A stretch of DNA of 64,000 nt from assembly GCF_000003815.2 (NCBI RefSeq), contig NC_049983.1:27609305-27673304 (forward strand), written 5' to 3'. Source of the DNA: Branchiostoma floridae. Lineage: Eukaryota; Chordata; Leptocardii; Amphioxiformes; Branchiostomatidae. The position numbers were made by a program, and so were the translations under genes. The notes beneath the pieces are model-generated. The model worked only from the letters and a program-made list of their open reading frames with translations. It ran no database searches and had not been told where the DNA came from. Of this stretch, positions 1 through 45,569 are shown in pieces; position 1 is the stretch's first letter, and each line of letters begins with the position of its first letter.

Positions 1-2760
1 CAGCTAAGTACCCTGTGGATGGGTTGCGATGATATTTGTAACGTAATTAGGTCACTGGTGTTGTGATCCTGATCTTTTCTATGCATTTTTGGCCTCCTGG
101 TGGTTGACCATGAAACTTTAGAAGGTGTCTTATTTTTATGTTTTAAGTAAACATGTGTGAATAACCTTGGGATGGATCGCTATGATTTTTGAGGTGTTAG
201 ATAGTTCTTGTGATCTGTAAGAAGTTACATTAGCTTGGGCCTCTTAGCGGCTAGTTTTGGAATTGCAGGGGCCTTGTTGTCAAAAACTACCGAGAAGGAT
301 AACTCAAGAAAGGAACAGTGGCTTGTCATGATTTCTGGCATGTAGGTAGCTCATACGAAGATGTACAAAATGGAAGATAGATCATGCAAAATAGGAGACA
401 ATTTGATTAATTAATGAGAATATTTTATCATAGTAGTTGTTTTGATGTGTATTTGTTGTCTTGGACATGATGTAGTCTTAACATTTTGGTGGAAGATAGC
501 TTGTGACATACATTAGCCAGTGGTACTAAACTCAAGAAGACCGGGCTTATCTTAACGGCACCACTGGACGATACATGATACATGACACACAACAGAAAAC
601 ATGTAAATGGGAACGTATGATGTACATGTATATATGGGGATTTATATCAATACTTGTTGCTTGGGGCTATGGGAAAGTTTCTTATATTTTGTGTTAAGGT
701 GATTGATGGAAGTGAGGTGTTGAAGGCGCTGTTCAGCATTTTATGAGTTGATATAATGTTGGCCGTATACGCATACCTTTGGAAGTCCGATGGAAAGAAA
801 AGTGGGGGAAAGAGGGGTCTTTCTACATGCAATTCGGAATTGTGTTGAGTGAATTGTGTTTAGACCATGTATGTTTATATGCATGACATCCTCCGGGAAC
901 TCGAAAATTGACGCGAGCATCCGAATAAAAAAAGTTTGGCCAAAACAAGCCTACCGCTGCCTGTGATCCACGAGTATTGTATTGTTGTAATTCTAATAAA
1001 CCAAATCAAAACAAAGTTGCGTTCATTATGGAGTCTATGTATAGTTAGGAAAGTTTGATTGAATATTACTAAACACGCAGAGCATGGTGTACCAAACAAT
1101 AGAGTATTAATTTTTGATCTATTATAACTTTGTCTTTGACTTTGGGACTTACTTTGGCATTCTAGGTCATTAGTATCTGTTTTCCGATTTTCTTTTGCAA
1201 TATCCGGCATATAATTGTCATTTTACAACAGCTTTGTACGATTCATAATATGTTTAAAATTTTCTTTTGGAAACGATTGAAAATTGATGCGCGTGCGGAT
1301 GTCGTCCATATAATGAAATCAACATGGCCATATTATGGAAGGCTGAATTAGCAGATATGTTTAGTTGTACATCTTTATCGGTCATGTGTTAAATTTGAGG
1401 TCTAATTTGTCAGTTTTCCTTTTTTTTCGTTGATTGGAAGGAGTAAGGTATGGGTTAGATTTAGAGCGGTTGTCAGTGTCTTGAACCTGTATTGTGTTGT
1501 GGAAAATTAAAGTTCTTATAGTTAGTAGTTATAGTTGGGAAATGAAACGTAAGTGACTTTTTTTTATTGACAACAGAACCGTCAAGATAAATCACCCTGA
1601 GGAACAACATTCATTCTAAGAACTAAAACTTAGTACAGTTAGTAATCTTTGTCCTTTCATAATTAATTGACCATGTTCCTTGCCAAGACCCCTCCACAGA
1701 AACCCAACCAACCCATAGAGAAGCACACTGAATATTCCATGGAGCGTTGGAGGTATGATGTCCAAGAACTCTTGTTGGTTTTGTTGTATTTAAACATAGT
1801 GAGAAGTACATGGTACACGGTTACATATTGCATCATATTCTAGTATGAAGTCAAGGGTCACATAAATCAATTTTAATTGCTATATGGTCGCTAAGTAATC
1901 ACCGTCCAGTGAACTTGGGAGCGTTGGATAAAATTGGCCACAAGGTTTAACTTGAATTTGTAATTAACATGTGTTCTTTGCAACCTATGATTTATTTCTA
2001 TAAATATCGATCGCATTGTAAAGGCCTCGTCACCCTGACTTATTACTTGAGCACTGTTGCTGCGAGTTATTTTTCACCTGTAGTCTACCAGTATTGAAGC
2101 AATGAATCCAGATGTAGGCCGCTTAGTTACCGTTACCGACGATAGGTGCTTAGTTACCGTTACCGACGATATTTTCTCCTCCATCGTAGCGTCGTACGCC
2201 GAACGTTTTAGAAGCAGGGGGCGCAGTAGTTTAACAATATTAGGTCGTGGTCAAAAACGTCATAGATAATCGCACGATCGGGTCAAAGGAGATTGAAGGA
2301 CAGTACCTGTAGCAACAGGAAAATCACAGGTACATCAGTCATCGCTAAGTGTCGAGTGACGAAACCTACATTTGAAAAGGACTTTGACCAAGTTCAAAAT
2401 ATATATCGTGCGATGTTTATAGAGCAAAGTACAGACCGCAAAGGGTAGATCCGGTCCCTCCGCGAGTCGCTGTACAAGGTAAGGACGCTTCACTATGTAC
2501 ATTGCTTTAGTGACTATAACTGTACACTATGCTTCATACATCAATACAATCATCAATATCCATAGACCACAAAATTTATGAGACAATCAGAAAGAGGGAG
2601 GGAGCATAAGAAAGACAGAGCGATAAAGCGATGACGTCTTCGTACGTGCGCAGCTGAAAAGGCTGTCTAGTCGTGCTAATCGTATTAATCGCAAGTTTTA
2701 CTTTTGTTCTTCACCAGTTAAGAAACTTGTTCATGACCTACTGCCACTCAGATATTTTGC
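1..2760. other. No gene recognised
   Basis: I see no splice-consistent coding exon and no recognisable protein family on either strand; the open frames are short and of non-coding appearance. The only structure noted is a 24-bp direct duplication (2121-2144 and 2148-2171) separated by 3 bp. Confidence 0.5.
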
Positions 2761-3290: not shown

Positions 3291-3296
3291 TTTATT
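3291..3296 (-). terminator. Candidate poly(A) signal, BRICHOS copy 1
   Basis: AATAAA on the minus strand, about 380 bp past the stop codon, inside a block kept in all three copies (also 9877-9882 and 20616-20621). Copy 1 has a second AATAAA closer to the stop at 3548-3553, so which one is used is unknown. Confidence 0.45.
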
Positions 3297-3678: not shown

Positions 3679-6027
3679 TCAAGGGCAGTAAGGTGTGCAC
3701 TGCCATCCTGTGCCCGTATAGTCATGGCGCCGGGTGCAGTCATAATAGGATGGTTCCTGAAATGGGTTACTAAGGCGTTGACAATTGTAGGTGTAGATGC
3801 ACCTGTTGGTCTTCAATTGGCAATTGTACCTCCAAAGCCACGGCTCACAGTTTACGATGAGCCGAGCAGTTTTGTTCCCTAATCAGAGAAAAAAACGGCA
3901 ATGTTGAGCATATCTGCCGTCAGGATGACTGAAATTGAATGGTTAAATCAGAGGACTTTTAAGGGCCACACCCTGAGTTTATTTCGGGTTGCTTTACACC
4001 CTCAAGTCTAGCGACAGCCTTAGCCAGCAAATTATATTGTAGCTGAATGACTGTATATAGGCTGAGAGGATATTCTTTCAGCTGAGTCATGATCATTCAA
4101 CTTATCTAATTTTGAAAAATTACAGGAAAAATCGTTATTTTCATGTGAAAAGTAATGCACAAAATCGGACGTTTCGCATTTGATAAAACCCATTGAAAAG
4201 ATTGTCAGGCATACCTGACTGTTGTTGTCAGAAAGAGGAAAACGCTGCGAGTGATCGAGCCAAGAAAATTCTACTACCACAATTTTTTCATAAACATCCA
4301 CGGAGTGCGGTACTGCAGCTTCGGACACAATCACACAACACCTCAGAGGTCAATCTGGGTCAAGGAATCGATTTACATTCTAGGCGTACGGATACCCTGA
4401 AATGAAGCTCAGGTCCAAACACAATTTTCACCAAAAGCACACCACTTCCTGCGCTTTAAGACATGTTCGTATTTAATGTACCTAATGAGAAATTCAAACC
4501 TAGTCGAAGAGCTAATCGAAATGTAGAAAATGATGTAAGATTTTACCTCCGTCCTGCTCGATGGATGCCCCAGGAACCACCTCCGTACTGTAGACAGGAT
4601 ACTTCTCGCACATCTGGGCCATCTGATCCCCCAACATGGACCGGTCCTTCACAGGCTGCGCGGCGGCGCGCTCGTAGGTCTCCTCCTTCTTCCTCTTGAT
4701 GATGGTGCTCCGTGCTTGTGGATTCTATAAACATAGGCGGGGTATTTAATGTCAATATTATAAAATCAAAGCTCATGGCGTCTTTTGTGACCGTAACTTG
4801 TAGTCCTAAGTGTTCTCTCTGTACATTGACAATTAATTTTCTGAAAGTTCACTCACCGCCATCTCGCTCAACCCTTCCTCCAGCTTGTCGATAGTCAGCA
4901 TATCGTCAGGCATGTGGGACAGGAAACAGACGTTCAGGTCCGGGAAGAGGGTCATCGCCAGACCCTGTAAAGTAAAATGCATGAATTTGTCAGTTACCAC
5001 CGCTAGACTACATCTGTTCTTCTTTTAAACATAAGTACCATAAACATGTGGGTGTAAATCGTGTTGTACGCACCGTGTTGTAGTCCAGCATGAACTGATT
5101 GGCAGTCACGATGTTGTGCTGAGGCACGTGGAACACGACGATCTGATTCTCCCGGTCTACGTCAGTCACTTGGTTGAAAATCGTTCCTTCCTCGTTGATT
5201 TGGACAGTGTACTGATGCTAAAAAGGAGAATTCGGATCATGAATCAGCAGCAACAAATGCACGAGTAGGTACATGTAATGGTTTCTCTCTGGAAATGTAA
5301 TTCCTACCATGACGTTATCTTAACCTGTCTGTATATGTGCCTGTAAAGCCGGTATAGCCGCCTTTGGTGTATCACACCAGCTTCTGTATCTGTATCTATA
5401 TAGCCGGTATAACCGCCCTTCGGCGTAACACACCAGCTTCTGTATCTGTATCTGTATCTGTATGGTTGGTATAACCGCCCTTCGGCGTAACACACCAGCT
5501 TCTGTATCTATATCTGTATGGTTGGTATAAATGCATTTCATACCAATGTCAAATCTGATCAAAGTATATTCAACGTCATTTCACTCCCTGTAGAATATCC
5601 TCTTGTACTTTTACCATTTGCCGTTTACAACATTAATCATTTTCAGATTGAAACATTAGATTCAACGGGGACAGATATACCTACATTGCAGGACAGGCTC
5701 ACTTGTGAAACCAAAGAAAAGCTGACATTTAAGCTGCACACTAATTTGTTGAAGATTTAAAATGTTATCTTCCCTACCTGGGTGGAGGGGGCCTTTTCCT
5801 CACACGTACAGGGGCATGTACAGGAGGGTGCCGCGTGGACGGTAGACAAAACCGCCAAGATGGAGAAGAGCAGAAATCCAGCCTGGGGAACATGAACAAA
5901 TGTTACATGTTACATAAAATGAAATAAACTACACCCTAGTTTTTTATGTTACATAAAATAAAATAAACTACACCCTAACTTGAAGAGGCAGCGCTATCAG
6001 CATAAGAGAGTCTTGATGGCTTACCAT
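3679..6027 (-). CDS. Secreted BRICHOS-domain protein, copy 1 (six exons, 245 aa)
   Basis: Exons read from GT-AG sites (minus strand): ATG 6027-6025 (then a phase-0 intron), 5882-5778, 5217-5074, 4964-4857, 4724-4547 and 3878-3679 (TGA at 3681-3679). The product starts with a signal peptide (MAGFLLFSILAVLSTVHA), then a CxCxCxC patch. A BRICHOS domain follows at about residues 37-165. The family's three invariant positions are present: Asp81 in LDYNTG, Cys97 in DLNVCFLSHM and Cys159 in MCEKYPVYSTEV. The last exon encodes a 66-residue tail with seven cysteines ending YCP. BRICHOS domains are intramolecular chaperones in secreted or membrane precursors. Signal peptide and size resemble gastrokines more than type II membrane members. 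The first five exons nearly match copies 2 and 3, but the last exon is strongly diverged. A basic KRKK run lies at about residues 130-133. Confidence 0.85.
5331..5530. repeat. Intronic minisatellite, 3 units, in BRICHOS copy 1
   Basis: A roughly 56-bp unit (CTTCTGTATCTGTATCTG, then GGTATAACCGCCCTTCGGCG) repeats about three times in intron 2. Unit length varies through gain or loss of TGTATC hexamers. The equivalent intron has about five units in copy 2 and about one and a half in copy 3, and a stray unit lies near 15090-15150. Open frames across it (YRYRYR-type) are spurious. Confidence 0.75.
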
Positions 6028-6127
6028 GACGAACCAGTGGACAGTCGGTCTCTTCGGTCGAAGATTCAGTCACAACAGCTTTTGCGTGGATGGTTGGGGT
6101 ATGTCACCAATCGAGCGGTGCACCCAA

Positions 6128-6133
6128 TTTATA
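6128..6133 (-). promoter_or_regulatory. TATA box of BRICHOS copy 1
   Basis: TATAAA on the minus strand about 100 bp upstream of the ATG, which predicts a 5' UTR of about 70 nt on the first exon. CCAAT/ATTGG motifs lie just upstream (about 6160-6175). The same arrangement is kept in all three copies. Confidence 0.6.
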
Positions 6134-6789
6134 GAGGTTTGAAACAATGAACCTGTCAATCAACCAATCAATCAAGTTGTTTGTTACACAAAAATTCTTG
6201 GAAGCAACACTTCCTTGACTTTTGTGTAAATTCTGCAAAGCGCTGACTCATGAGAACAGAACATAAGTTGCTGACTTGTTATTTGCAATATGTATTGGAA
6301 CGTGTCAATGTGGCTTGAGAACTCTAAGCTGTACCATTCATATATGTCATATAGTCATAGTAGTCTTACGTTGTCTTATCCTTGTTTCCTTTGGACTACT
6401 GAAAATATATCTTCCTAACTTTTTTGCAAATTGATTATGGAGGATAAACCTGTTTTCCAACTAGATCTCTTTTGCAAATCAATTCACAGCTAGGATGTAA
6501 AAACCTCTCTCCAACAAGATCTCTTCAGTGTCACTGACGAAAGACACCGGATGTTGTTTGAACATTCTGGCTATTTCTTGTTGACTCGTTAGCAAACCAT
6601 GTTTGGAACAGCAACAGGGGTTATTAAGAGTAGCTGTCATTGTCATAAACATATTGAAATTCCTTAATGTACTTAAATTGTTCCGACAGGTAATCATGCA
6701 CATCGAGATACTATTCTATAGTTTTGTCTGGAATCTTTCCAATGTGCGTGTGCTGACTGACAAGGGCGATTACATGCTCATGAGTCATG

Positions 6790-7015
6790 ACCGAACTGTA
6801 AGTTATGCCGCGAGTTGTTTTTTTCGGAGCCTTGTCCTTTGACAAAGGTCCTACACTTGTTTGTCACAGAGTACGTTTCCTTGTTAGATAATATTTTTGT
6901 TCCATGGCAGCAAACACACGCAGAGCCCGACTTAGAACCAGTTCCAAGAAATCCACTCCATCGCCATGTCCAACCGGGCGGTCCTTGCCCGGTCAACCGC
7001 CCTGACATTTAAGCC
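6790..7015. repeat. Dispersed repeat 'R1' (one of at least seven copies)
   Basis: A block of about 200 bp centred on TCCTTGTTAGATAAGATT, then AGCAAACACACGCAGA, then CCAACCGGGCGGTCCTTG. Related copies lie at about 7985-8150, 13445-13665, 16145-16310, 23945-24150, 25790-26000 and 26690-26815. Copies at 25.8 and 26.7 kb lie outside the triplicated segment and are more diverged, so this is a dispersed repeat, not just part of the duplication. No coding potential or tRNA boxes are apparent; class unknown. Confidence 0.55.
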
Positions 7016-7358
7016 TTTCGATTTCTTTGTCGTCAGAATTTGTAGACATTATCTTCATACCTCCACGATATATCTTTTTGTGAATATCTTGTTTTATCTT
7101 GTTTCATTGATTATATGAATTTGGCTGTAATCAATAATTTTTCTAAAAGATGGTCTTCTCTTTCTTGTAACTCTGGTATTTGAATGCAAGACTGTTTCTT
7201 GTATCAGTATCAGTCGGTACGTCCACCAGCTTATTGGTCATTTTGTACATCATGCAAAGTCTGGACATTTTCCTTCTGTCTTCAAGTGACATCCACTGCA
7301 AATCTGTTTTCATTTTGGTAACAGTGGCATCCCTGCTTGGGTCTGCACCCTTGCCAGT

Positions 7359-7890
7359 TTATCTTTGTCTTTCTTTGTATACGGGTCCCATACTGTTGCA
7401 TACTGTTGCATCATATTCAAGATTAGGTCTTACCCCGGCTGGGCATGCCCACAAGTTACGTTTGATCACCCCCAATGTCTGTTTAGCCTTGTTTGTTATT
7501 TTGTTAACATAGAAACCCCACTTCAGCCTAGTTGTTAACGTGACACCTAGGTATGGGTGTGTTTTTGTGGTTGCTAATGTCTGACCACAGAGCTGGTAAT
7601 GGGGCACATTTGGTGTTCGTTTGTTCGTAATGTGCATGATATAGCACTTGTCAGGATTGAAGTGCATAAGCCATTTATTTCCTTTGTCATTCTTCCAGCG
7701 TGTTCAGGTCTTTCTGAAGGACTTGTGAATCACTCTTTGTGGATACCTCTATATATAACAGGCAATCATCGGCGAATAACCGTATGTCTAGACGACAATG
7801 TTCCTTGGTATCTGTTACACTGTTGCTATTTAGAAGCGAGCTGACAAAGGCAGAACTACAAACTACCTGAAAACCTTTTATTTCCAAACC
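7359..7890 (-). mobile_element. CR1/L2-like reverse-transcriptase fragment B, copy in unit 1
   Basis: Minus-strand frames encode the palm and thumb part of a non-LTR reverse transcriptase: an RLFADDCLLY motif (YADD-box equivalent), then MHFNPDKCYIMH and a YLGV motif. The two parts lie in separate frames, so the copy is broken. It lacks the C-terminal part kept in the unit 2 copy (15250-16060), having lost about 1.4 kb at the 13.9-15.3 kb equivalent. Confidence 0.7.
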
Positions 7891-8869
7891 ACGTGCCCTA
7901 ATATAAACCTTCCTTCAACATGAATGAAACGTTAATAATGCTTTTATTGTGCTCAGAGACCTTTCCTCGTCTTCAAAGGTAGCAACATTTATTTTTCACA
8001 GAGTCTAAGGTTTCCTTGTTAGATAAGATTGTCGTTCCATGGTAGCAAACACACGCAGAACCCGACGTAGAACCAGTTCCTGGAAAATTACTCTATCGTC
8101 TTGTCCAACCGGGCTGACCTTGACCGGTCAGCTGCCCTGACAGAAACGCTTTTGAGTCTTTTTTTTGCGAAGGCAGAGGACGGCCATTTTGCAGGCTGAT
8201 TTCCACAAAAAGGACAATTGGAAGAACTATAGTTCACCGATTCGATTAAATCATCAATATTTAGCGCTATAGCTTTATAGATATTGTAGACATTGTATCA
8301 AATCTAAAGCATGGAAAGATATTGCACAGACACATAAATCAATTTTAATTGCTATACTTCAGCTGAGTCTACTTAGATGAACAAGACAAAATACATGTGC
8401 CTCCTGTAAATAAAGATTTGTTGTTTCTTTCGATAACCGTGTTCTATGTTTCAACTCAGAATACCAACTTTGTAGTCCCGTGCTTTAGCAGAATTTTTCC
8501 CTTGTATTTTTTTGCCATCCGCATTAGTTTTGGGGCTCTAATCAGTTGTGGAGTCTGGTGGAGGCTAAGTATTTCATACTGACCTCATGCGGAACTTGAC
8601 TATGTGCCTCTAAATAGCTAGACTTAAAATATATGAGACAGTGAGATAGTGAGATGGTTCAGTTAGTGAACAATAAAACACATCGCAGCTACTTCTACAC
8701 AGTAGAAGAGGCTGAATTGCGCATTTTAGACATTGTACTTCATACATGTGTAGCATCTATGAATTAATATACAATTACAAGAAGTCGTATTATAGAAATA
8801 AAGCAAAAGGAAACAAAACAAATTGTTATACAAAGTATAAATGAAGACTGTGACGGTGGATTAAGAGAC

Positions 8870-9740
8870 ATGGGAGATCTTTTCAGGTACATGTATTTAA
8901 AAGGTGGGTGAAGTATAGGATGGGGCTGTTTTTGTAGCGGTTTGTTTTGGTCGATGGAATGCAAAGTTTGTTCGCACATTTTTGGTCTCTACCATGGACT
9001 TCCGAACGTGTTGGAGGTAGCCAGCTTCTAAATATAGGGGAACTAATAATAAGAGATTTGGAAAACTTAAGGCTAAGGTTTTTCCTCCTGTTTTCTAAGG
9101 AGGGGAGACAAAAATGGGCTAGGGCTTCATCATAACATGTATAATGGAGGCCAAGGATAATTCTTAGGGCACGTTTTTGTACTCGCTCGATCTTCATGGA
9201 TTGCAGCGCCGTGATACTCGGGCTCCAAACTGGAGCAGCGTACTCTAAAGTAGGCCGTATGTAACCTTGATAGAATTCAATGAGATCTTGTGTGGAAAGT
9301 CCAAATCGTCTTAATTTTTTTCAGCCAAAAAAGGCGTGAACTTGCCTTTTGTGTGATGATGTCAACATGTTTGCTCCAACTAAGATCTTTGGCGAACCAT
9401 AGGCCAAGTATACATGCGTCTTCCGTGTATTCAAGGGGCGTATCGTTAAGTGAGATTGTCGGAGGAGGGGGGCAGTCTTTCATAAACGAAATCATTAGTA
9501 GTTTAAATTTTTCACCGTTTAGGATCATGTCGTTTTTTGACGCACAGCCATTTAATTCATTCAGGGATGTTTGTACTTGGCTGGGTTCATAGAACATTCT
9601 ACTTTCACATATTGATAAGTCGTCGACAAATTTATAACGGTCTAAAACGTCTTCTCTGAGGGCGTCGTTAATATAAATTAAGAAGAGGATAGGACCTAAT
9701 TTTGTGCCTTGGGGGACGCCAGACGAAATTTCTCTCCAAT
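8870..9740 (-). mobile_element. Non-LTR reverse-transcriptase fragment A, copy in unit 1 (frameshifted)
   Basis: Same insertion as 19639-20485. The minus strand encodes the QG-box and C-terminal RT region, but the frame is broken near 9200-9290, so this copy is dead. Its 5' truncation point abuts a GATA/GAGA simple repeat (about 9740-9795). It sits at the distal end of duplicated unit 1, just beyond the 3' end of BRICHOS copy 2. Confidence 0.7.
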
Positions 9741-9876
9741 ATGATGGATAGATAGATAGATGGAGAGAGAGAGAGAGAGGTAGAGAGATAGAGAAAACAC
9801 GTTTTTAAACTAAAACGTTGTAGTCAAAACAAATCTTTGTAGTAACGAACAATATGCAGTAAGTGCTTTGACAAAC

Positions 9877-9882
9877 TTTATT
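9877..9882 (-). terminator. Candidate poly(A) signal, BRICHOS copy 2
   Basis: Minus-strand AATAAA about 330 bp past the stop codon, within a block conserved with copies 1 and 3. Confidence 0.45.
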
Positions 9883-10209
9883 CAAATGTTGAATGGAACC
9901 ACAGGTGAGATTGACCTCGACAATGTAAAATGAAGTTGTGCGCAAATCAAACCGAATCTAATTCACACAGTAGGACAGCTACCTTGTGTAAACATATCTC
10001 ATTTTGTCTCATTCAAATGAGAAAGCATTTAGAAAACAAGTTGAGTTTAGTTTATCAATGGAAATCTACATTAACACACACGCAATGACACGTTTTACGT
10101 GTTTTGCACAAAGGCTTAAAACGTCAAACACAAAGGATTGTAAGAACCAATTTGCCAGCTAAGACAAAAATTTTCTGACAGCCTGCCAGATATTTTTATC
10201 TTAAATTTC

Positions 10210-12672
10210 TCAAGGGCAATAAGGGGTGCACTCCCAGCCAATGCCTGTGAAGTCATGGCGCCGGGTGCAGTCATAATAGGTTGGTTGCTGAAATGGGTTA
10301 CCATTGTTGTTACAGTTGTAGACGTAGACGCAGGTGTTGGTCTCACGTTCACATCTGTACATCCATGTCGTTGGTGGACAAGACAGGGTCAGAGTACGAG
10401 CAGTTTTGTTCCCTAAGCAGTGAAAAAATTGACAATGTTTAGCATATCTGCCGTCAGGATGGCTGAAATTGAATGGTTAAATCAGAGGACTTTTAAGGGT
10501 CACACCCTGAGTTTATTTCGGGTTGCTTTACACCCTCAAGTCTAGCGACAGCCTTAGCCAGCAAATTATATTGTAGCTGAATGACTGTATATAGGCTGAG
10601 AGGATATTCTTTCAGCTGAGTCATGATCATTTAACTTCTCTAATTTTGAAAAAGTACGGGAAAAATCGTTATTTTCATGTGAAAAGTAAGGCACAATCGG
10701 ACGTTGATGATAAAACCCAATTAAAAGATTTTCAGGCATACCTGACTGTTGTTGTCAGGAAGAGGAAAACGTTGCGAGTGATCAAGCCAATTATAAAGGT
10801 AATTCTAGTACTAATGTTTTTTTTTTAAATCATCCATGACGCGGCGTATTGCAACTTCGGAAACAATCACACAACACCTCAGAGGTCAATCTGGGTCAAG
10901 GAATCAATTTACATTCTAGGCGTACGGATACCCCGAAATGAAGCTCAGGTCCAAACACAATTTTCACCAAAAGCGCACCACTTCCTGCGCTTTAAGACAT
11001 GTTCGTATTTAATGTCATTTTGCAGTAACTAATGAGAAATTCAAACCTAGTCGAAGAGCTAATCGAGATGTAGAAAATGGTGTAAGATTTTACCTCCGTC
11101 CTGCTCGATGGATGCCTCAGGAACCACCTCCGTAGTGTAGACAGGATACTTCATGCACATCTGGGCCATCTGGTCCCCCAGCATGGAGCGGTCCTTCACA
11201 GGCTGCGCGGCGGCGCGCTGGTAGGTCTCCTCCTTCTTCTTCTTGATGATGGTGCTCCGTGCTTGTGGATTCTATAAACATAGGCGGGGTATTTAATGTC
11301 AATATTATAAAATCAAAGCTCATGGCGTCTTTTGTGACCGTAACTTGTAGTCCTAAGTGTTCTCTCTGTACATTGACAATTAATTTTCTGAAAGTTCACT
11401 CACCGCCATCTCGCTCAACCCTTCCTCCAGCTTGTCGATAGTCAGCATATCGTCAGGCATGTGGGACAGGAAACAGACGTTCAGGTCCGGGAAGAGGGTC
11501 ATCGCCAGACCCTGTAAAGTAAAATGCATGAATTTCTCAGTTACCACCGCTAGACTACATCTGTTAAACAGAAGTACCATAAACATGTGGGTGTAAATCG
11601 TGTTGTACGCACCGTGTTGTAGTCCAGCATGAACTGATTGGCAGTCACGATGTTGTGCTGTGGCACGTGGAACACGACGATCTGATTCTCCCGGTCTACG
11701 TCAGTCACTTGGTTGAAAATCGTTCCCTCCTCGTTGATTTGGACAGTGTACTGATGCTAAAAAGGAGAATTCGGATCATGAATCAGCAGCAACAAATGCA
11801 CGAGTAGGTACATGTAATGGCTTCTCTCTGCAAATGTAATTCCTACCATGACGTTATCTTAACCTGTCTGTATATGTGCCTGTAAAGCCGGTATAGCCGC
11901 CTTTGGTGTATCACACCAGCTTCTGTATCTGTTTCTATACAGCCGGTATAACCGCCCTTCGGCGTAACACACCAGCTTCTGTATCTGTATCTGTATGGTT
12001 GGTATAACCGCCCTTCGGCGTAACACACCAGCTTCTGTATCTATATCTGTATGGTTGGTATAACCGCCCTTCGGTGTAACACACCAGCTTCTGTATCTGT
12101 ATCTGTATGGTTGGTATAACCGCCCTTCGGCGTAACACACCAGCTTCTGTATCTGTATCTGTATGGTTGGCATAACTGCATTTCATACCAATGTCAAATC
12201 TGATCAAAGTATATTCAACGTCATTTCACTCCCTGTAGAATATCCTCTTGTACTTTTACCATTTGCCATTTACAACATTAATCATTTTCAGATTGAAACA
12301 GTAGATTCAATGGGGATAGATATACCTACATTGCAGGACAGGCTCACTTGTGAAACCAAAGAAAAGCTGACATTTAAGCTGCACACTAATTTGTTGAAGA
12401 TTTAAAATGTTATCTTCCCTACCTGGGTGGAGGGGGCCTTTTCCTCACACGTACAGGGGCACGTACAGGAGGGTGCCGCGTGGACGGTAGACAAAACCGC
12501 CAAGATGGAGAAGAGCAGAAATCCAGCCTGGGGAACATGAACAAATGTTACATGTTACATAAAATGAAATAAACTACACCCTAGTTTTTTATGTTACATA
12601 AAATAAAATAAACTACACCCTAACTTGAAGAGGCAGCGCTATCAGCATAAGAGAGTCTTGATGGCTTACCAT
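10210..12672 (-). CDS. Secreted BRICHOS-domain protein, copy 2 (six exons, 246 aa)
   Basis: Exons (minus): ATG 12672-12670, 12527-12423, 11756-11613, 11511-11404, 11271-11094 and 10412-10210 (TGA at 10212-10210). All splice sites and phases match copy 1. The signal peptide, CxCxCxC patch and BRICHOS Asp and two Cys are identical in position. The basic run is KKKK rather than KRKK. The tail exon has seven Cys (LSCPPTTWMYRC, later YYDCTRRHDF and CTPYCP) and is one codon longer than in copy 1. It is clearly different from the copy 1 tail but essentially the same as copy 3. Function is inferred only from the domain: a secreted precursor whose tail may be the released peptide. A pseudogene is unlikely because every frame and splice site is intact. 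Confidence 0.86.
11876..12178. repeat. Intronic minisatellite, about 5 units, in BRICHOS copy 2
   Basis: Same unit of about 56 bp as at 5331-5530, expanded to about five copies, in the same intron of the paralogue. Confidence 0.75.
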
Positions 12673-12772
12673 GACGAACCAGTGGACAGTCGGTCTCTTC
12701 GGTCGAAGATTCAGTCACAACAGCTTTTGCGTGGATGGTTGGGGTATGTCACCAACCGAGCGGTGCACCCAA

Positions 12773-12778
12773 TTTATA
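12773..12778 (-). promoter_or_regulatory. TATA box of BRICHOS copy 2
   Basis: TATAAA on the minus strand, about 100 bp before the ATG, at the same distance as in copies 1 and 3. The flanking promoter sequence is nearly identical to copy 1. Confidence 0.6.
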
Positions 12779-13999
12779 GAGGTTTGAAACAATGAACCTG
12801 TCAATCAACCAATCAATCAAGTTGTTTGTTACACAAAAATTCTTGGAAGCAACACTTCCTTGACTTTTGTGTAAATTCTGCAAAGCGCTGACTCATGAGA
12901 ACAGAACATAAGTTGCTGACTTGTTATTTCCAATATGTATTGGAACGTGTCAATGTGGCTTGAGAACTCTAAGCTGTACCATTCATATATGTCATATAGT
13001 CATAGTAGTCTTACGTTGTCTTATCCTTGTTTCCTTTGGACTACTGAAAATATATCTTCCTAACCTTTTTGCAAATTGATTATCTAGGATAAACCTGTTT
13101 TCCAACTAGATCTCTTTTGCAAATCAATTCACAGCTAGGATGTAAAAACCTCTCTCCAACAAGATCTCTTCAGTGTCACTGACGAAAGACACCGGATGTT
13201 GTTTGAACATTCTGGCTATTTCTTGCTGACTCGTTAGCAAACCATGTTTGGAACAGCAACAGGGGTTATTAAGAGTAGCTGTCATTGTCATAAACATATT
13301 GAAATTCCTTAATGTACTTAAATTGTTCCGACAGGTAATCATGCACATCGAGATACTATTCTATAGTTTTGTCTGGAATCTTTCCAATGTGCGTGTGCTG
13401 ACTGACAAGGGCGATTACATGCTCATGAGTCATGACCGAACTGTAAGTTATGCCGCGAGTTTTTTTTCGGAGCCTTTGTCCTTTGACAAAGGTCCTACAC
13501 TTGTTTGTCACAGAGTACGTTTCCTTGTTAGATAAGATTGTTATTCCATGGCAGCAAACACACGCAGAGCCCGACTTAGAACCAGTTCCAAGAAAAACCA
13601 CTTTATCGTCATGTCCAACCGGGCGGTCCTTGCCCGGTCAACCGCCCTGACATTGAAGCCTTTTGATTTCTTTGTCGTCTGACTTTGCAGACCTTATCTC
13701 CATACCTCCATGATATATTCAAAGTTTTTGTGAATATCTTGTTTTATCTTTTTTCATTGATTATATGAATTTTGCTGTAATAATAATAATAATCATCTGG
13801 TGTATTTTGCCAGCCAGTAGGTACCCAAAGTATGAGTAATGAGGCTGTTTAACGTGGTCGAGGCTCCAAAAGATGGTCTTCTCTTTTGACATGGAATAAG
13901 TTGTATGTGTGCGTGAAATTCTGTTTCCTTTGGCAGAACTACATTTCTTAACTAGAGTACCACGGCCGCATACCTTCGCCAAATGATTCTACACTTTAC

Positions 14000-14575
14000 A
14001 ACTGCTATAATGTATTAATTTTGTTTGTCATTAATATGCAAATAAGGTTGTCATTGGAGTAAATTATATTACTTGATCATCTCCTCCACCAAACAACAGA
14101 CATACACAATCTATGTTAAAATGATTTTTATCGCATTTTCTGCTAATTTATGCAAATGAGGTCATCATTTGCATAATTTATGTTCAACGATGCTCACCTA
14201 TACATAACTTCCAAATGCCACAAGTAAAAGTTCCCGTCATTTGCCACAATGACGTTATAGCATTCCCTCAATAATTACGCAAATTAGGTCTGTATTTTGC
14301 ATGACATATCTATAAATATTCTTCTCTTTCTCAGTTACAAATGTCACATGTTGCAATGGTCATATGATAGATCTGAGCGTGTTTAAACGATTTCCTGATT
14401 AATTATGCATATAAGATTCCTATTTGCATAATTATGAAGTTAGGGTTGTAGATCCGCTCGTAGATGACCTCCCTGACTCCGCGATCATACCACCATGGTT
14501 CACGGTCAAGGATGCCTGTCATATCGATGAAGGTTAGACATCTACTGGCAGGTAAAAAGATACGTAAAAAAACAA
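14000..14575. other. AT-rich spacer, no gene
   Basis: AT-rich sequence with repeated 'atgcaaat'-like and 'gcataat'-like motifs. No coding exon is seen. It belongs to a stretch of about 1.4 kb present in unit 2 but missing from unit 1. Confidence 0.4.
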
Positions 14576-14705
14576 TTACTCAAGCAACTGGATATGGTTT
14601 TGGAAACGATCAGACGTTTCAGATAACATCTGTTGTTTCTTGTCAGTGTCAATGTTATCTAAAACGTCTGACCGTTTCCACAACCATATCCAGTTGCTTG
14701 AGTAA
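14576..14705. repeat. Long inverted repeat: 54-bp arms, 22-bp loop
   Basis: Left arm 14576-14629 and right arm 14652-14705 are near-perfect reverse complements (each carries the AACTGGATATGG or CCATATCCAGTT core and the cagacgtt/aacgtctg core). The right-arm sequence recurs at about 59566-59620 and 63306-63360, always followed by a CCTGGATGT..AACCTACATCGACG stretch in those two, so it belongs to a dispersed element. Here two copies face each other. Confidence 0.75.
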
Positions 14706-15249
14706 CTGCTTTTTGGCGTAAGGATGTCTGTTGTCTCCAGTCTAAAGGAACGTTCTTGGTGTGGTAGAGGACGAGTATCCACATGTTCAACCGGCGTTTC
14801 TAGTTAGATGTAAACTTGTATTGAATTGTTTCTGCCAGTTCATTCTAGTGACGCTGAAGAAGAGTGATTGATGTCACTCGTAACGTCCGGAAGTAAATCG
14901 TTTTTTATCCAGTTGTAGAGATTGGATTGTATTTGGATATCGTTTACCTGGATGTGTAACATTCATAAACGTAAACGTACTAAAGTACTCGTTCCAAAAT
15001 AGTTTCACCAACGACTATTTTTGTTTACTATTTGTGTGTATAAAATATAAATCGTCAGAGATTATTTGTAGATATCGGGTGTACTTTGACCTCCCATATC
15101 TGTAACTGTATCTATATAGCCGGCATAACCGTCCTACGGCATAAAACACTAGATTCACAGGCACGCGGCGCGGCAGCAGCTGGTTACTTGTATAATACAC
15201 TGAACGACCCGTCACACTCAACTTTTGTATGTCTATCTGCAAGCGTTCT

Positions 15250-16060
15250 TTAAACCTCACCAGAGAAGATGTCCCTTATAGTTCTGGGAAAGTACGAATT
15301 TTTGAACACATCGATCCTAGGCTGGTAACTCTGGTATTTGAATGCAAGACTGTTTCTTGTATCAGTATCAGTCGGTACGTCCACCAGCTTATTGGTCATT
15401 TTGTACATCATGCAAAGTCTGGACATTTTCCTTCTGTCTTCAAGTGACATCCACTGCAAATCTGTTTTCATTTTGGTAACAGTGGCATCCCTGCTTGGGT
15501 CTGTACCCTTGCCAGTAAGAGTTTATATTTGTCTTTCTTTGTATACGGGTCCCACACTGTTGCATACTGTTGCATCATATTCAAGATTAGGTCTTACCCT
15601 GGCTGGGCATGCCCACAAGTTGCGTTGAATCACCCCCAATGTCTGTTTATCCTTGTTTGTTATTTTGTTAACATAGAAACCCCACTTCAGCCCAGTTGTT
15701 AACGTGACACCTAGGTATGGGTGGCTTTTTGTGGTTGCTAATGTCTGACCACAGAACTGGTAATGGGACACATTTGGTGTTCGTTTGTTCGTAATGTGCA
15801 TGATATAGCACTTGTCAGGATTGAAGTGCATAAGCCATTTATTTCCTTTGCCATTCTTCCAGCGTGTTCAGGTCTTTCTGAAGGACTTGTGAATCACTCT
15901 TTGTGGATACCTCTATATATAACAGGCAATCATCGGCGAATAACCGTATGTCTAGACGACAATGTTCCTTGGTATCTGTTAGACTGTTGCTATTTAGAAG
16001 AGAGCTGACAAAGGCAGAACTACAAACTACCTGAAAACCTTTTATTTCCAACCCACGTGC
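15250..16060 (-). mobile_element. CR1/L2-like reverse-transcriptase fragment B, copy in unit 2
   Basis: In order on the minus strand: an RT palm with RLFADDCLLY (about 15960), then NPDKCYIMH and YLGV segments, then the C-terminal part (RRKMSRLCMMYKMTNKLV; FPRTIRD) that is typical at the end of CR1-like ORF2. Frames are broken between segments, so it is a relic. It is the longer sister of 7359-7890. Confidence 0.7.
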
Positions 16061-16784
16061 CCTAATATAAACCTTCCTTCAACATGAATGAAACGTTAAT
16101 AATGCTTTTATTGTGCTCAGAGACCTTGCCCGTCTACAAAAGTAGCAACATTTATTTTTCACAGAGTCTAAGGTTTCCTTGTTAGATAAGATTGTTGTTC
16201 CATGGTAGCAAACACACGCAGAACCCGACGTAGAACCAGTTCCTGGAAAATTACTCTATCGTCTTGTCCAACCGGGCTGACCTTGACCGGTCAGCTGCCC
16301 TGACAGAAACGCTTTTGAGTCCTTTTTTTGCGAAGGCAGAGGACGGTCATTTTGCAGGCTGATTTCCACAAAAAGGACAATTGGAAGAACTATAGTTCAC
16401 CGATTCGATTAAATTATAAATATTTAGCGCAATAGCTTTATAGATATTGTAGACATTGTATCAAATCTAAACCATGGAAAGAGATTGCTCAGACACATAA
16501 ATCAATTTTAATTGCTATATTTCAGCTGAGTCTACTTAGATGAACAAGACAACATACATGTGCCTCCTGCAAATAAAGATTTGTTGTTTCTTTCGATAAC
16601 CGTGTTCTATGTTTCAACTCATAATACCAACTTTGTAGTCCCGTGCTTTAGCAGAATTTTTTCCTTGTATTTTTGAGCTATGTCCAGTATCAGGGTGAAG
16701 TGCACGAAGTTAGGGTGTACGAAGTTGTACGAAGTTGTACTAAGTTACAACCGTTTCCCACTGGCTTTGATGCTATATCGGGAG

Positions 16785-17330
16785 TCACAGATGACGTCAA
16801 AACATTTATTGGATGACGTCATCTAACTTTGGACAGTGGGCAGGGTAGGTCAACAAGTGTACGAAGTTGTCCTAAGTTGTGCAAAGTTACGTGACGTCAT
16901 CTAACTTCGGACAGTGGGTAGGGTAGGTCAACAAGTGTGCGAAGTTGTCCTAAGTTGTGCAAAGTTACGTGACGTCATCTAACTTCGGACAGTGTGCAGG
17001 GTAGGTCAACAAGTGTGCGAAGTTGTCCTAAGTTGTGCAAAGTTACGTGACGTCATCTAACTTCGGACAGTGGGTAGGGTAGGTCAACAAGTGTGCGAAG
17101 TTGTCCTAAGTTGTGCAAAGTTACGTGACGTCATCTAACTTCGGACAGTGGGTAGGGTAGGTCAACAAGTGTGCGAAGTTGTCCTAAGTTGTGCAAAGTT
17201 ACGTGACGTCATCTAACTTTGGACAGTGGGCAGGGTAGGTCAACAAGTGTGCGAAGTTGTCCTAAGTTGTGCAAAGTTACGTGACGTCATCTAACTCTGG
17301 ACAGTGGGCAGGGTAGGGCGGCATGTGTAC
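16785..17330. repeat. 78-bp tandem array with CRE palindromes (left subterminal)
   Basis: About six to seven units at exactly 78-bp spacing (GTGCGAAGTTGTCC starts near 16937, 17015, 17093, 17171 and 17249). Each unit carries TGACGTCA, the full cAMP-response-element/ATF palindrome. The array lies inside the left end of the TIR element. Confidence 0.85.
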
Positions 17331-17820
17331 GAATTTGTCCAAAGTTAATACATAGTAAAAACTTATATATGTGTAAATAAGATACACACCACTCACGCAT
17401 ATAAACAAATAAAATATAGATGCACATTAATCAGCACAAAATCAATGTTCATGCATTGTAAAAAATTTCATTTATTTCACTTTTTTTGTCTTTTATTTCT
17501 CCTCTTAACGTTCGTTTTAACAATGCACACAAAATAATTTACGTTCACTCTTAATATTATATTTCCCTTTTTTTACGTCACTTCTAAATACAAGTACCTG
17601 AAAACATCTCCCCTATCTATTTATAAACTACATGTATTGCAGTCATCTTTCACTACTTTGTATCATAAGAAGTAGTAGTTGTTATTTTATTCCTTGTAAT
17701 TTAACAATTAATTGAAGTACTTCCACCATTTAGTACATAAGTAAACCCAGCAGACGGACTACCACTGTCCGTATGGTCTTTCCGCAACTTCGTGTAAACA
17801 TCAGTCACAAGTTCTTGAAT

Positions 17821-18592
17821 CTATTTGCAGATAGTAGATTTCCCAGCACCTGCCAAGACAACAGGTAAATGTCATTTTGATCCCCGCTAATAGATGTTTA
17901 AAAAGAATAGAACAAATGAAATAAAAGCAGCCGTGGCGCAATACAGAGATTGAAAAACGACACCATTCTACGAACGCATTCCAGGTTCGAATTAAAAAAA
18001 AACACCTGAGCAAATGACGTAAATGTCTGTTGGTGACGTTAAGCAAAAGAATGTTCGACAAGGTATGGTTCTAGAAATGACGGTTGTAAATTTTGAACAT
18101 ATAACGTTATATCTACATTTAATCAAACGTTTGATTTGAAACAATAAAAAAGGTGTTTATAAGTAAATCTACCTGTTGGCAGGCAGATGGCTGTCCACAT
18201 GTACAGAAGAACATTTTCCCTCCATTTGGTGTCAGGTGGAGAGACTTGTGCATGGCTTACAGCAAAAGCCGCGACCGTGATAAGGCTATATAAAACAGCC
18301 ACCATTGGCACGCACAAAACAGATGCAACAGCACAACATCCCTGTGAAGAATAAGACAAATCTTAATAAAGATAAGTAATCTGCATTCTGATAAAAAATA
18401 TGTTGTTTTGTAAGATGTAACTTCTAAAGAATAGAAGATTTATGAATCAAAAGTCAGAACTCAAAACATATCAAGGTGCGATTAATACGACTAACCCACC
18501 TGAACAAGTTCTTCCGGAAAATCCTTCCAATCAAACTCGACTTTCCAGGACGAATGGAGATTTGTAGCCTTCAAAGAGTTACTGCACGACAT
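17821..18592 (-). CDS. Possible three-exon cargo gene inside the TIR element (96 aa)
   Basis: Exons (minus): 18592-18500, 18341-18173 and 17849-17821 (TAG), with GT-AG sites and matching phases. The predicted product has a soluble start (MSCSNSLKATNLHSSWKVEF), one strong hydrophobic segment (about residues 35-60) and ends LPTGAGKSTICK, a fragment resembling a nucleotide-binding P-loop but cut off by the stop. I do not recognise the family. It may be a gene fragment captured by the transposon, the remains of a longer GTPase- or ATPase-like gene, or a chance set of open exons. The last intron contains one of the element's direct repeats. Confidence 0.35.
17930..18100. repeat. Internal direct repeat of the TIR element (with 18661-18853)
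   Basis: This stretch (core GAAAAACGACACCATTC, later TTCTAGAAATGAC) recurs in the same orientation at 18661-18853 with scattered differences, about 740 bp away. The pair brackets the first two exons of the putative cargo gene. Confidence 0.7.
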
Positions 18593-18948
18593 GATATGAT
18601 ATAATTTGTCCGTAAATCCCCCGTTAAGAAAGTCTATTTCGTCAAAGACACAGACTAAAAAGTAGCCGTGGCGACTTCAGCGCCACACGGTTTCAAACTG
18701 TTAGACTGAAAAACGACACCATTCGAAGAACGCATTCCGGATTCGAATTACGAAAACACTTGAGTTAGTGACGTAAACGTCAGATTGTGACGTCTAAGAA
18801 GATGAGAACATTAGAAGAAAGGTTCTAGAAATGACAGTTGAGACATTTGAACGTAACACAGAAAACGTGTAGACGCGTAGTGTAGTATATGTATCGCCAA
18901 AGTCATGCTAGGCGACATCTTCCTAGGAATACGCGACCTGATCAGTAC

Positions 18949-19180
18949 ACCCGGCTGACTGTCCAAAGTTTAGATGACGTCATGGTTAGCGTGACGTCAT
19001 AACTTCGGACAAGTTCGTACAACTCCGTACATCACCCGGCTGACTGTCCAAAGTTTAGATGACGTCATGGTTAGCGTGACGTCATAACTTCGGACAAGTT
19101 CGTACAACTCCGTACACCACCCGGCTGACTGTCCAAAGTTTAGATGACGTCATAACTTCGGACAAGTTCGTACAACTTTG
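18949..19180. repeat. 85-bp tandem array with CRE palindromes (right subterminal)
   Basis: Three units starting at about 18951, 19036 and 19121 (CCGGCTGACTGTCCAAAG). The first two carry two TGACGTCA-core sites each, the third one. In reverse complement the unit resembles the left 78-bp unit (tgacgtcatctaa..tttggacagt), so the two arrays look like independently expanded parts of one long inverted repeat. Confidence 0.8.
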
Positions 19181-19638
19181 GACAACTTTGGACAACTTCA
19201 GACATCTAACTTAACTTAGGACAACTTCGTGCATTTCACCTGATACTGGACATGGGTGGTATTTTTTTGCCATCCGCATTAGTTTTGGGGCTCTAATTAG
19301 TTGTGGAGTCTGGTGGAGGCTAAGTATTTCATACTGACCTCATGCGGAACTTGACTATGTGCCTCTATATAGCTAGACATATATAAATATATGAGACAGT
19401 GAGATAGTGAGATGGTTCAGTCAGTGAACAATAAAATACATCGCAGCTACTTCTACACAGTAGAAGAGGCTGAATTGCGCATTTTAGACATTGTACTTCA
19501 TACATGTGTAGAATCTATGAAAATATACAATTACAAGAAGTCTTATTATAGGAATAAAGCAAAAGGAAACAAAACAAATTGTTATACAAAGTATAAATGA
19601 AGACTGTGACGGTGGATTGAGAGACTTGGGAGATCTTT

Positions 19639-20485
19639 TCAGGTACATGTATTTAAAAGGTGGGTGAAGTATGGGATGGGGCTGTTTTTGTAGCGGTTTG
19701 TTTTGGTCGATGGAATGCTAAGTTTGTTTGCACTTTTTAGGTCTCTACCATGAACTTCGGAACGTGTTGGGGGTAGCCAGCTTCTAAATATAGGGGAACT
19801 AATCAGAGATTTGGCAAACTTAAGGCTAAGGTTTTTCCTCCTGTTTTCTAAGGAGGGGAGACATAAATGGGTTAGGGCTTCGTCATAACATGTATAATGG
19901 AGGCCAAGGATAATTCTTAGGGCACGTTTTTGTACTCGCTCGATCTTCATGAATTGCAGCGCCGTGATACTCGGGCTCCAAACTGGAGCAGCGTACTCTA
20001 AAGTAGGCCGTATGTAACTCTGATAGAATTCGATGAGATCTTGTGTGGGGAGTCCAAATCGTTTTAATTTTTTCAGCCAAAAAAGGCGTGAACTTGCCTT
20101 TTGTGTGATGATGTCAACATGTTTGCTCCAACTAAGATCTTTGGAGAACCATAGGCCAAGTATACATGCGTCTTCCGTGTATTCAAGGGGCGTATCGTTA
20201 AGTGAGATTGTCGGAGGAGGGGGGCAGTCTTTCATAAACGAAATCATTAGTAGTTTAAATTTTTCACCGTTTAGGATCATGTCGTTTTTTGACGCCCAGC
20301 CATTTAATTCATTCAGGGATGTTTGTACTTGGCTGGGATCATAGAACATTTTATTTTCACATATTGATAAGTCGTCGACAAATTCATAACGGTCTTCTCT
20401 GAGGGCGTCGTTAATATAAATTAAGAAGAGGATAGGACCTAATTTTGTGCCTTGGGGGACGCCAGACGAAATTTCTCTCCAATAT
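19639..20485 (-). mobile_element. Non-LTR reverse-transcriptase fragment A, copy in unit 2
   Basis: One open minus-strand frame of about 280 codons: SSGVPQGTKLGPILFLIYIN (RT domain 4/5), EFVDDLSI (the catalytic YxDD box as FVDD), LGLWFSKDLSW and the RT thumb, ending near 19639. The 5' part (endonuclease and fingers) is missing and the truncation abuts a GATA/GAGA repeat at about 20488-20535. The domain order fits a CR1/jockey-type non-LTR element. The unit 1 copy (8870-9740) has a broken frame. Confidence 0.8.
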
Positions 20486-20615
20486 GATGGATAGATAGAT
20501 AGATGGAGAGAGAGAGAGATAGATAGAGAGAGAGAACACGTTTTTAAACTAAAACCTTGTAGTCAAAACAAATCCTTGTAGTAACGAGCGATATGCAGTA
20601 AGTGCTTTGACAAAC

Positions 20616-20621
20616 TTTATT
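20616..20621 (-). terminator. Candidate poly(A) signal, BRICHOS copy 3
   Basis: Minus-strand AATAAA about 330 bp past the stop, in the same conserved block as in copies 1 and 2. Confidence 0.45.
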
Positions 20622-20948
20622 CAAATGTTGAATGGAACCACAGGCGAGATTGACCTCGACAATGTAAAATGAAGTTGTGCACAAATCAAACCGAATCTAA
20701 TTCACACAGTAGGACAGCTACCTTGTGTAAACATATCTCATTTTGTCTCATTCAAATGAGAAAGCATTTAGAAAACAAGTTGAGTTTAGTTTATCAATGG
20801 AAATCTACATTAGCACACACGCAATGACACGTTTTACGTGTTTTGCACAAAGGCTTAAAACGTCAAACACAAAGGATTGTAAGAACCAATTTGCCAGCTA
20901 AGACAAAAATTTTCTGACAGCCTGCCAGATATTTTTATCTTAAATTTC

Positions 20949-23206
20949 TCAAGGGCAATAAGGGGTGCACTCCCAGCCAATGCCTGTGAAGTCATGGCGC
21001 CGGGTGCAGTCATAATAGGTTGGTTGCTGAAATGGGTTACCATTGTTGTTACAGTTGTAGACGTAGACGCAGGTGTTGGTCTCACGTTCACATCTGTACA
21101 TCCATGTCGTTGGTGGACAAGACAGGGTCAGAGTGCGAGCAGTTTTGTTCCCTAAGCAGTGAAAAAATTGACAATGTTTAGCATATCTGCCGTCAGGATG
21201 GCTGAAATTGAATGGTTAAATCAGAGGACTTTTAAGGGTCACACCCTGAGTTTATTTCGGGTTGCTTTACACCCTCAAGTCTAGCGACAGCCTTAGCCAG
21301 CAAAGTATATTGTAGCTGAATGACTGTATATAGGCTGAGAGGATATTCCTTCAGCTGAGTCATGATCATTCAACTTCTCTAATTTTGAAAGATTACAGGA
21401 AAAATCGTTATTTCCATGTGAAAAGTAATGCACAAAATCGGGCGTTTCGCATTTGATAAAACCCATTGAAAAGATTTTTCAGGCATACCTGACTGTTGTT
21501 GTCAGAAAGAGGAAAACGTTGCGAGTGATCGAGCCAATTATAAAGGTAATTCTAGTACTAATTTTATCTTTTTAAATCATCCATGACGCGGCGTATTGCA
21601 ACTTCGGACACAATCACACAACACCTCAGAGGTCAATCTGGGTCAAGGAATCGATTTACATTCTAGGCGTACGGATACCCCGAAATGAAGCTCAGGTCCA
21701 AACACAATTTTCACCAAAAGCGCACCACTTCCTACGCTTTAAGACATGTTCGTATTTAATGTCATTTTGCAGTAACTAATGAGAAATTCAAACCTAGTCG
21801 AAGAGCTAATCGAGATGTAGAAAATGGTGTAAGATTTTACCTCCGTCCTGCTCGATGGATGCCTCAGGAACCACCTCCGTAGTGTAGACAGGATACTTCA
21901 TGCACATCTGGGCCATCTGGTCCCCCAGCATGGAGCGGTCCTTCACAGGCTGCGCGGCGGCGCGCTGGTAGGTCTCCTCCTTCTTCTTCTTGATGATGGT
22001 GCTCCGTGCTTGTGGATTCTATAAACATAGGCGGGGTATTTAATGTCAATATTATAAAATCAAAGCTCATGGCGTCTTTTGTGACCGTAAATTGTAGTCC
22101 TTGTTCTCTCTGTACATTGACAATTAATTTTCCGAAAGTTACTCACCGCCATCTCGCTCAACCCTTCCTCCAGCTTGTCGATAGTCAGCATATCGTCAGG
22201 CATGTGGGACAGGAAACAGACGTTCAGGTCCGGGAAGAGGGTCATCGCCAGACCCTGTAAAGTAAAATGCATTAATTTCTCAGTCAGTTATCACCGCTAG
22301 ACTATATCTGTTCTTCTTTTAAACAGAAGTACCATAAACATGTGGGTGTAAATCGTGTTGTACGCACCGTGTTGTAGTCCAGCATGAACTGATTGGCAGT
22401 CACGATGTTGTGCTGAGGCACGTGGAACACGACGATCTGATTCTCTCGGTCTACGTCAGTCACTTGGTTGAAAATCGTTCCTTCCTCGTTGATTTGGACA
22501 GTGTACTGATGCTAAAAAGGAGAATTCGGATCATGAATCAGCAGCAACAAATGCACGAGTAGGTACATGTAATGGTTTCTCTCTGCAAATGTAATTCCTA
22601 CCATGACGTTATCTTAACCTGTCTGTATCTGTGCCTGTAAAGCCGGTATAGCCGCCTTTGGTGTATCACACCAGCTTCTGTATCTGTATCTGTATGGTTG
22701 GTATAACTGCCCTTTATACCAATGTCAAATCTGATCAAAGTATATTCAACGTCATTTCAATCCCTGTAGAATATCCTCTTGTTGTACTTTTACCATTTGC
22801 CATTTACAACATTAATCATTTTCAGATTGAAACATTAGATTCAACGGGGACAGATATAAATGCATTGCAGGACAGGCTCACTTGTGAAACCAAAGAAAAG
22901 CTGACATTTAAGCTGCACACTAATTTGCTGAAGATTTAAAATGTTATCTTCCCTACCTGGGTGGAGGGGGCCTTTTCCTCACACGTACAGGGGCACGTAC
23001 AGGAGGGTGCCGCGTGGACGGTAGACAAAACCGCCAAGATGGAGAAGAGCAGAAATCCAGCCTGGGGAACATGAACAAATGTTACATGTTGCATAAAATA
23101 AAATAAACTACACCCTAGTTTTTTATGTTACATAAAATAAAATAAACTACACCCTAACTTGAAGAGGCAGCGCTATCAGCATAAGAGAGTCTTGATGGCT
23201 TACCAT
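20949..23206 (-). CDS. Secreted BRICHOS-domain protein, copy 3 (six exons, 246 aa)
   Basis: Exons (minus): ATG 23206-23204, 23061-22957, 22511-22368, 22254-22147, 22018-21841 and 21151-20949 (TGA at 20951-20949). Lengths and phases are the same as in copy 2. The signal peptide, BRICHOS Asp and Cys pair and the seven-Cys tail are intact. It is closest to copy 2 throughout, including the tail exon. Intron sequences are also highly similar to copies 1 and 2, so the duplications are recent. The minisatellite in intron 2 is reduced to about one and a half units. Confidence 0.85.
22622..22710. repeat. Intronic minisatellite remnant in BRICHOS copy 3
   Basis: One and a half units of the same repeat found at 5331-5530 and 11876-12178, in the same intron. 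Confidence 0.65.
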
Positions 23207-42683: not shown

Positions 42684-42779
42684 GATGGAAGGATGACGCT
42701 AGAAAATTACTGCAAGACGATGTATACGATACTTTTGTGTTATTCTGCTCTTTGTACAGAGTTGACATAGAATAAAGTG

Positions 42780-44243: not shown

Positions 44244-45493
<1,250 letters not shown>

Positions 45494-45569
45494 TAGCCTG
45501 GATACCATACCCCAACCTCAGATATCGATACTTGAGATCGGGCTGGGGTTTAATTTGGTAACCAGGCTA
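45494..45569. mobile_element. 76-bp hairpin MITE
   Basis: TAGCCTGGATACCA at the left and TGGTAACCAGGCTA at the right pair as inverted repeats, with an inner CCCCAACC/GGCTGGGG pairing, so the whole unit can fold into one stem. Confidence 0.55.

Follow-up and report, generated by a model that had tools for sequence, protein, structure and literature searches.

The 64,000-nucleotide stretch of the Branchiostoma floridae genome analysed here (the window; NCBI RefSeq assembly GCF_000003815.2, contig NC_049983.1, positions 27,609,305 to 27,673,304 of the forward strand) carries three tandem, intact minus-strand genes, A, B and C, each encoding a BRICHOS protein that ends in a separately encoded tail with seven cysteines. 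We give a probability of about one half to the reading that these are secreted, gastrokine-like BRICHOS proteins, in which the BRICHOS domain would help to fold a disulfide-rich tail that stays mostly attached, and in which gene B would have been produced by a crossover. Judged by sequence, stomach-lining proteins look like closer relations of these genes than the antibiotic precursors of worms do.

Gene models and domain layout

Exon-by-exon rebuilding and translation of the spliced products gave six exons in each gene. The coding spans are 3679..6027 for gene A (245 amino acids; exons 6027-6025, 5882-5778, 5217-5074, 4964-4857, 4724-4547 and 3878-3679), 10210..12672 for gene B (246 amino acids; exons 12672-12670, 12527-12423, 11756-11613, 11511-11404, 11271-11094 and 10412-10210) and 20949..23206 for gene C (246 amino acids; exons 23206-23204, 23061-22957, 22511-22368, 22254-22147, 22018-21841 and 21151-20949). 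All introns have GT/AG ends, introns 1-4 are in phase 0 and intron 5 is in phase 1, exon 1 of each gene is the Met codon alone, and the spliced frames are open throughout. The initial annotation, which had described three intact six-exon genes between 3679 and 23206, was exact in its outer coordinates and is upheld on the gene structures. On the same minus strand, a TATAAA lies 102-106 bases 5' of each ATG (6128..6133 in A, from 12778 in B, from 23308 in C) and an AATAAA lies downstream of each gene (3291..3296 in A, from 9882 in B, from 20621 in C), with further AATAAA/ATTAAA motifs at 3553 and 3546 in gene A. Chance is not a reasonable source of these gene structures, because all three copies preserve the six exons, the frame and the splice sites, and the domain score given below is well over its cut-off. 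No further gene copies or stray tail exons were found in the window by tblastn (best match outside the three genes, E 0.20).

The B and C proteins are identical (0/246 residues differ), so that the three genes encode two proteins. BRICHOS (PF04089), which is known as a chaperone domain, was the sole Pfam family matched in A (43.7 bits, E 3.4e-11) and in B (42.4 bits, E 8.5e-11), both at residues 77-165 and against a cut-off of 25 bits; A and B were scanned, the C protein being that of B. This profile search, which had been proposed as a check, agrees with the domain call made by the initial annotation. The domain is carried by exons 3-5, which with their introns span 4547..5217 in gene A, 11094..11756 in gene B and 21841..22511 in gene C. 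The Asp and the Cys pair claimed earlier are present in A and B as Asp81, Cys97 and Cys159, equated by eye with the conserved Asp and Cys pair that are the rule in the BRICHOS superfamily (PMC2751770). The order of the spliced proteins is that of the superfamily: a hydrophobic N terminus that by eye looks like a signal peptide in A, B and C, as had been suggested, a linker, BRICHOS and a C-terminal region. The BRICHOS proregion (residues 37-179) is acidic, with a charge of -10.9 in A and -9.9 in B. All three proteins contain a CTCPCTC segment, whose four cysteines, with the two of BRICHOS and the seven of the tail, bring the total to 13, so that at least one is unpaired within a monomer. Searches of the PDB with the whole proteins returned weak matches only (the best to ribosomal S8, E 0.42 and 0.96); in viral contigs, 79 stretches fitted a pattern and none coded for a relative, both patterns having been taken from the N-terminal part.

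The tail is encoded by exon 6 alone, as first annotated, at 3679..3878 in gene A (66 amino acids), 10210..10412 in gene B and 20949..21151 in gene C (67 amino acids each, identical in protein), and has seven Cys in every copy. The A tail is anciently diverged from that of B and C, and the Cys spacing, 8-6-5-14-12-3, is common to both tail types. In the variable centre, 20 of the 38 residues differ between A and B, and all nine C/W/Y/F positions of B are kept in A (hypergeometric 0.0003, for residue classes picked after viewing the alignment; 0.041 for the seven tail Cys alone). This pattern suggests that the tail folds as a disulfide domain whose surface varies. The tails alone matched no Pfam family and no PDB chain at E values up to 10.

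Divergence along the genes

The differences between A and B are concentrated in the tail. Before it, the two differ at 12 of 537 bases (synonymous divergence, dS, 0.053; nonsynonymous divergence, dN, 0.014) and, in protein, at 5 of 179 residues; within it, they differ at 50 of 198 bases (dS 0.561, 95% 0.29-1.05; dN 0.253; dN/dS 0.45) and, in protein, at 23 of 66 residues. The silent sites of the tail exon have diverged too, so the whole exon is old. By part, dN/dS is 0.75 in the centre and 0.09 in the last third, and on these codon comparisons the end of the tail is under purifying selection.

The profile of divergence along the genes gave for A and B 0-2% in exons 2-4 and introns 1-4 (minus the minisatellite stretch 5321-5539 of intron 2), 1.0% in the 5' flank, 5.1% in exon 5, 4.0% in intron 5 near exon 6 and 8.2% elsewhere in that intron, 25% in exon 6 (35% in its centre) and 13% in the 3' flank. 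The corresponding values for A and C are 0-1% in exons 2-4, 1-5% in introns 1-4, 7.9% in the 5' flank, 5.1% in exon 5, 5.0% and 6.8% in intron 5, 25% in exon 6 and 12% in the 3' flank. The centre of exon 6 (A and B; chosen after viewing the profile) stands apart in Fisher tests from the 3' flank (p 1e-6), from the nearby part of intron 5 (3e-13) and from the last third of the exon (0.001). Introns 1-4 are nearly invariant between A and B, so homogenisation, rather than selection at the protein level, explains the constant part. Positive selection as the sole cause of the tail divergence was rejected, dS being high too (0.56) and dN/dS 0.09 in the last third; these values agree better with a tail that patchy conversion has left behind as an old tract. 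The minisatellite of intron 2 has a unit of 56-62 bases and lies at 5328-5530 in A and 11890-12176 in B (not listed for C), with a copy number that differs between A and B.

Gene B as a mosaic of A and C

In coding sequence, B differs from C at 4 of 738 bases and from A at 62 of 735 bases (28 of 245 residues). In a three-way alignment of the duplicated units, B matches C on the left and A on the right: across 269 informative sites (163 with B=C, 106 with A=B), the best single breakpoint leaves 21 mismatches, and none of 10000 shuffles was equally good. The recombination interval is at the start of exon 5 and intron 4, at 11239..11343 in gene B (4693-4797 in A), with C-like sequence to its left and A-like sequence to its right. 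B is 96.1% identical to C over its C-like part, and 96.4% and 96.9% identical to A over its A-like parts, a pattern that a single unequal crossover producing B from A and C would be expected to leave.

A rather doubtful alternative is that the copy number is partly an artefact of assembly, two haplotypes having been joined in a row with B as a chimera or an allele. Polymorphism in lancelets is high, the stretches shared by B and C and by A and B are about 3-4% different, which is possible for alleles of a very polymorphic animal, and mis-joined haplotypes could also look like a gene that is half A-like and half C-like. However, the array contains no run of N (in the window such runs begin at 35300), the self-comparison showed no direct counterpart beside A of the spacer 16675-19258 between B and C, and the tails of A and C have diverged further than ordinary alleles would.

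Minus-strand reverse transcriptase open reading frames (ORFs) were found at 8883-9804, 19639-20562 and 41049-42698, with Pfam RVT_1 matches in the scanned stretches 9280-9804, 19642-20562 and 41052-42698; of these, the first two belong to the duplicated unit, next to the BRICHOS genes.

Processing site, charge and an adjoining convertase gene

Neither a dibasic pair nor an RX[K/R]R motif occurs between Cys159 and the first tail Cys. The only candidate cleavage site is K-T-A-R at residues 182-185, which is overlapped by an N-K-T sequon for N-glycosylation at 181-183; dibasic pairs are found elsewhere, in BRICHOS (130-133) and, at residues 229-230 of A and 230-231 of B, within the tail. The charge of the tail after K-T-A-R is +1.8 in A and -1.6 in B and C, and that of the whole tail +3.8 in A and +0.8 in B and C.

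A gene for a proprotein convertase of the furin/kexin family (about 28378-33429, plus strand) adjoins the array, head to head with gene C. Its joined exons match furin (E 2.3e-93) and the P domain (E 1.9e-19), with a stop after the P domain; the single S8 exons are under the Pfam cut-off, and the start and the prodomain were read by eye. In the alignment with furin, VDGP is replaced by LEGP and CDGYTN by YNGYIN, at positions that we take to be the acids of the S1 pocket, here Glu and Asn in place of Asp.

The initial annotation had read the proteins as precursors of client peptides, possibly antimicrobial ones of the arenicin type. The secreted layout stands, and the tail is a likely client given its conserved Cys and aromatic framework and otherwise variable sequence; the antimicrobial, arenicin-like part is not supported. 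It would have a convertase cut after K-T-A-R and the freed tail act on microbes in host defence, which we consider unlikely, and its place as first choice was lost to the cleavage motif and the charge. In its favour, the layout, with a signal peptide followed by an acidic proregion that contains BRICHOS and then by a peptide at the C terminus, is that of the annelid precursors (arenicin, alvinellacin, nicomicin, HfBRI), the tandem copies combine a constant chaperone part with diverged tails, a furin-like gene is adjacent, and cysteine-rich peptides linked to BRICHOS do exist in worms: HfBRI-75 and HfBRI-91 have 11 Cys and lack a pronounced cationic property (PMC10745061), and AmBRI-44a is defensin-like with four disulfides (PMC11767717). 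However, in worm precursors of BRICHOS antimicrobial peptides the C-terminal peptide is cationic and is immediately preceded by a dibasic site (PMC6265681, PMC10745061), whereas the genes described here share with them the acidic proregion and have neither a dibasic or furin motif before the tail nor a clearly cationic tail; the number of tail Cys is odd, the only weak site is overlapped by the sequon, and alvinellacin shows the reverse pattern, with an antimicrobial peptide that is identical across paralogs and a BRICHOS part that varies (PMC5431198).

Relatives of the BRICHOS domain and the tail

The BRICHOS domains of A and B were compared by score with unverified sequences of six human BRICHOS regions, so that the following z scores (A, B) are a lead only: GKN1 9.7 and 12.0, GKN2 8.7 and 8.5, CNMD 7.8 and 7.3, TNMD 3.9 and 3.3, SFTPC 3.2 and 2.4, ITM2B 0.1 and 0.2. 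The gastrokines GKN1, GKN2 and GKN3 resemble the proteins described here in a possible signal peptide, BRICHOS, a Cys-containing C-terminal region and colocalised genes, GKN1 and GKN2 being colocalised with the third family, group B (PMC2751770); they differ in that the lancelet genes have an additional CTCPCTC and a tail of 66-67 residues with seven Cys unlike the GKN1 C terminus (unverified sequence).

It is quite improbable that the genes are relatives of chondromodulin and tenomodulin, that is, extracellular matrix factors with a Cys-rich effector domain. The CNMD BRICHOS ranks third of the six human sequences and has a QPVKD stretch in common with the domains described here, and in CNMD (LECT1) and TNMD, as in our proteins, BRICHOS is followed by a C-terminal region with conserved Cys (PMC2751770). 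Against this, the gastrokines outscore CNMD, a membrane segment sets off the N-terminal region of CNMD and TNMD (PMC2751770) whereas the N terminus here reads, by eye, as a signal peptide at the very start and not as a cytosolic part with a membrane segment behind it, and the tail does not align clearly with the C termini of CNMD and TNMD (unverified sequences; 63 to 287 of 500 shuffles scored as well).

Amphioxus BRICHOS sequences were placed in a 'divergent group' (Hedlund 2009, PMC2751770), a mention that carries no sequence or layout, and BRICHOS in lancelets is mentioned in PMC11579453. The lancelet antimicrobial peptides listed in reviews belong to other types, namely BjAMP1, big defensin and peptides of ribosomal proteins (PMC11767717, PMC10608444, PMC12734493), and the BRICHOS antimicrobial peptides named in these papers come from marine worms. 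No description of these tandem BRICHOS-tail genes was found in the open-licence PMC literature on BRICHOS or gastrokines in amphioxus, within the parts available.

Other features of the window

On the plus strand, adjacent ORFs at 52860-54955, perhaps one gene, encode fibronectin III domains (E 1.7e-9; another, at 1.3e-4, under the Pfam cut-off) as well as a Death domain (E 1.8e-14), and an ORF at 45140-45496 encodes an EGF-like domain (E 6.3e-11). A minisatellite with a 38-base unit and 22.7 copies, open in several frames on both strands, lies at 37126-37986, and two further tandem repeats lie at 46421-47300 (period 215 bases) and 47472-48120 (period 206 bases). No tRNA was found in the window by ARAGORN, and Rfam gave zero matches at gathering scores.

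Discussion

The gastrokine-like reading can be put as a sequence of steps. The acidic BRICHOS domain would bind the unfolded tail in the secretory pathway and aid its folding and disulfide formation, and the protein would then be secreted largely whole, perhaps onto a mucosal surface. At least one of the 13 Cys may be free for an inter-chain disulfide, by analogy with GKN2, which is disulfide-linked to TFF1 in a heterodimer (PMC7350206). An unequal crossover of A with C inside the gene would have given B the tail of C and the 5' half of A, and patchy gene conversion would have kept exons 1-5 near-identical while the tail exon stayed old and diverged.

Several points weigh against this reading. 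K-T-A-R could be a weak convertase site, and a furin-like convertase gene, whose adjacency may be chance, adjoins the array. The z score is insensitive, leaving a true member of the superfamily, ITM2B, at chance level, and the gastrokine ranking is to be taken accordingly. The tail shows no C terminus of gastrokine type, 394 (A) and 428 (B) of 500 shuffles having scored as well against GKN1, nor does it resemble the C termini of CNMD and TNMD (63 and 127 of 500 for A, 287 and 263 for B), all three being unverified sequences. A second old patch is present in intron 5 of A at 4270-4329, where 17 of 60 bases differ from B and 18 of 60 from C. With the 13% diverged 3' flank, it means that the tail exon is not the sole old tract and that selection keeping the tails apart is not established; a strictly exon-limited island of divergence, also considered, is weakened by the same two observations. 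Nothing in the present analyses supports a mucosal site.

Least probable of all is a chaperone-plus-cassette system, with a constant BRICHOS foldase and a swappable, diversified, disulfide-rich tail, in which unequal crossing-over near the exon 4/5 boundary would join tails to the constant part and the adjacent, divergently oriented furin-like convertase, with altered residues in its putative substrate pocket, would mature the product.

If the tail is a client of BRICHOS, it would join a small number of known clients that are rich in disulfides, and a near-constant chaperone with two types of tail would allow testing directly whether clients are recognised by their sequence or only by their unfolded state. 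A gastrokine-like cluster of secreted proteins outside the vertebrates, if the reading is true, would bear on the origin of the mucosal gastrokines.

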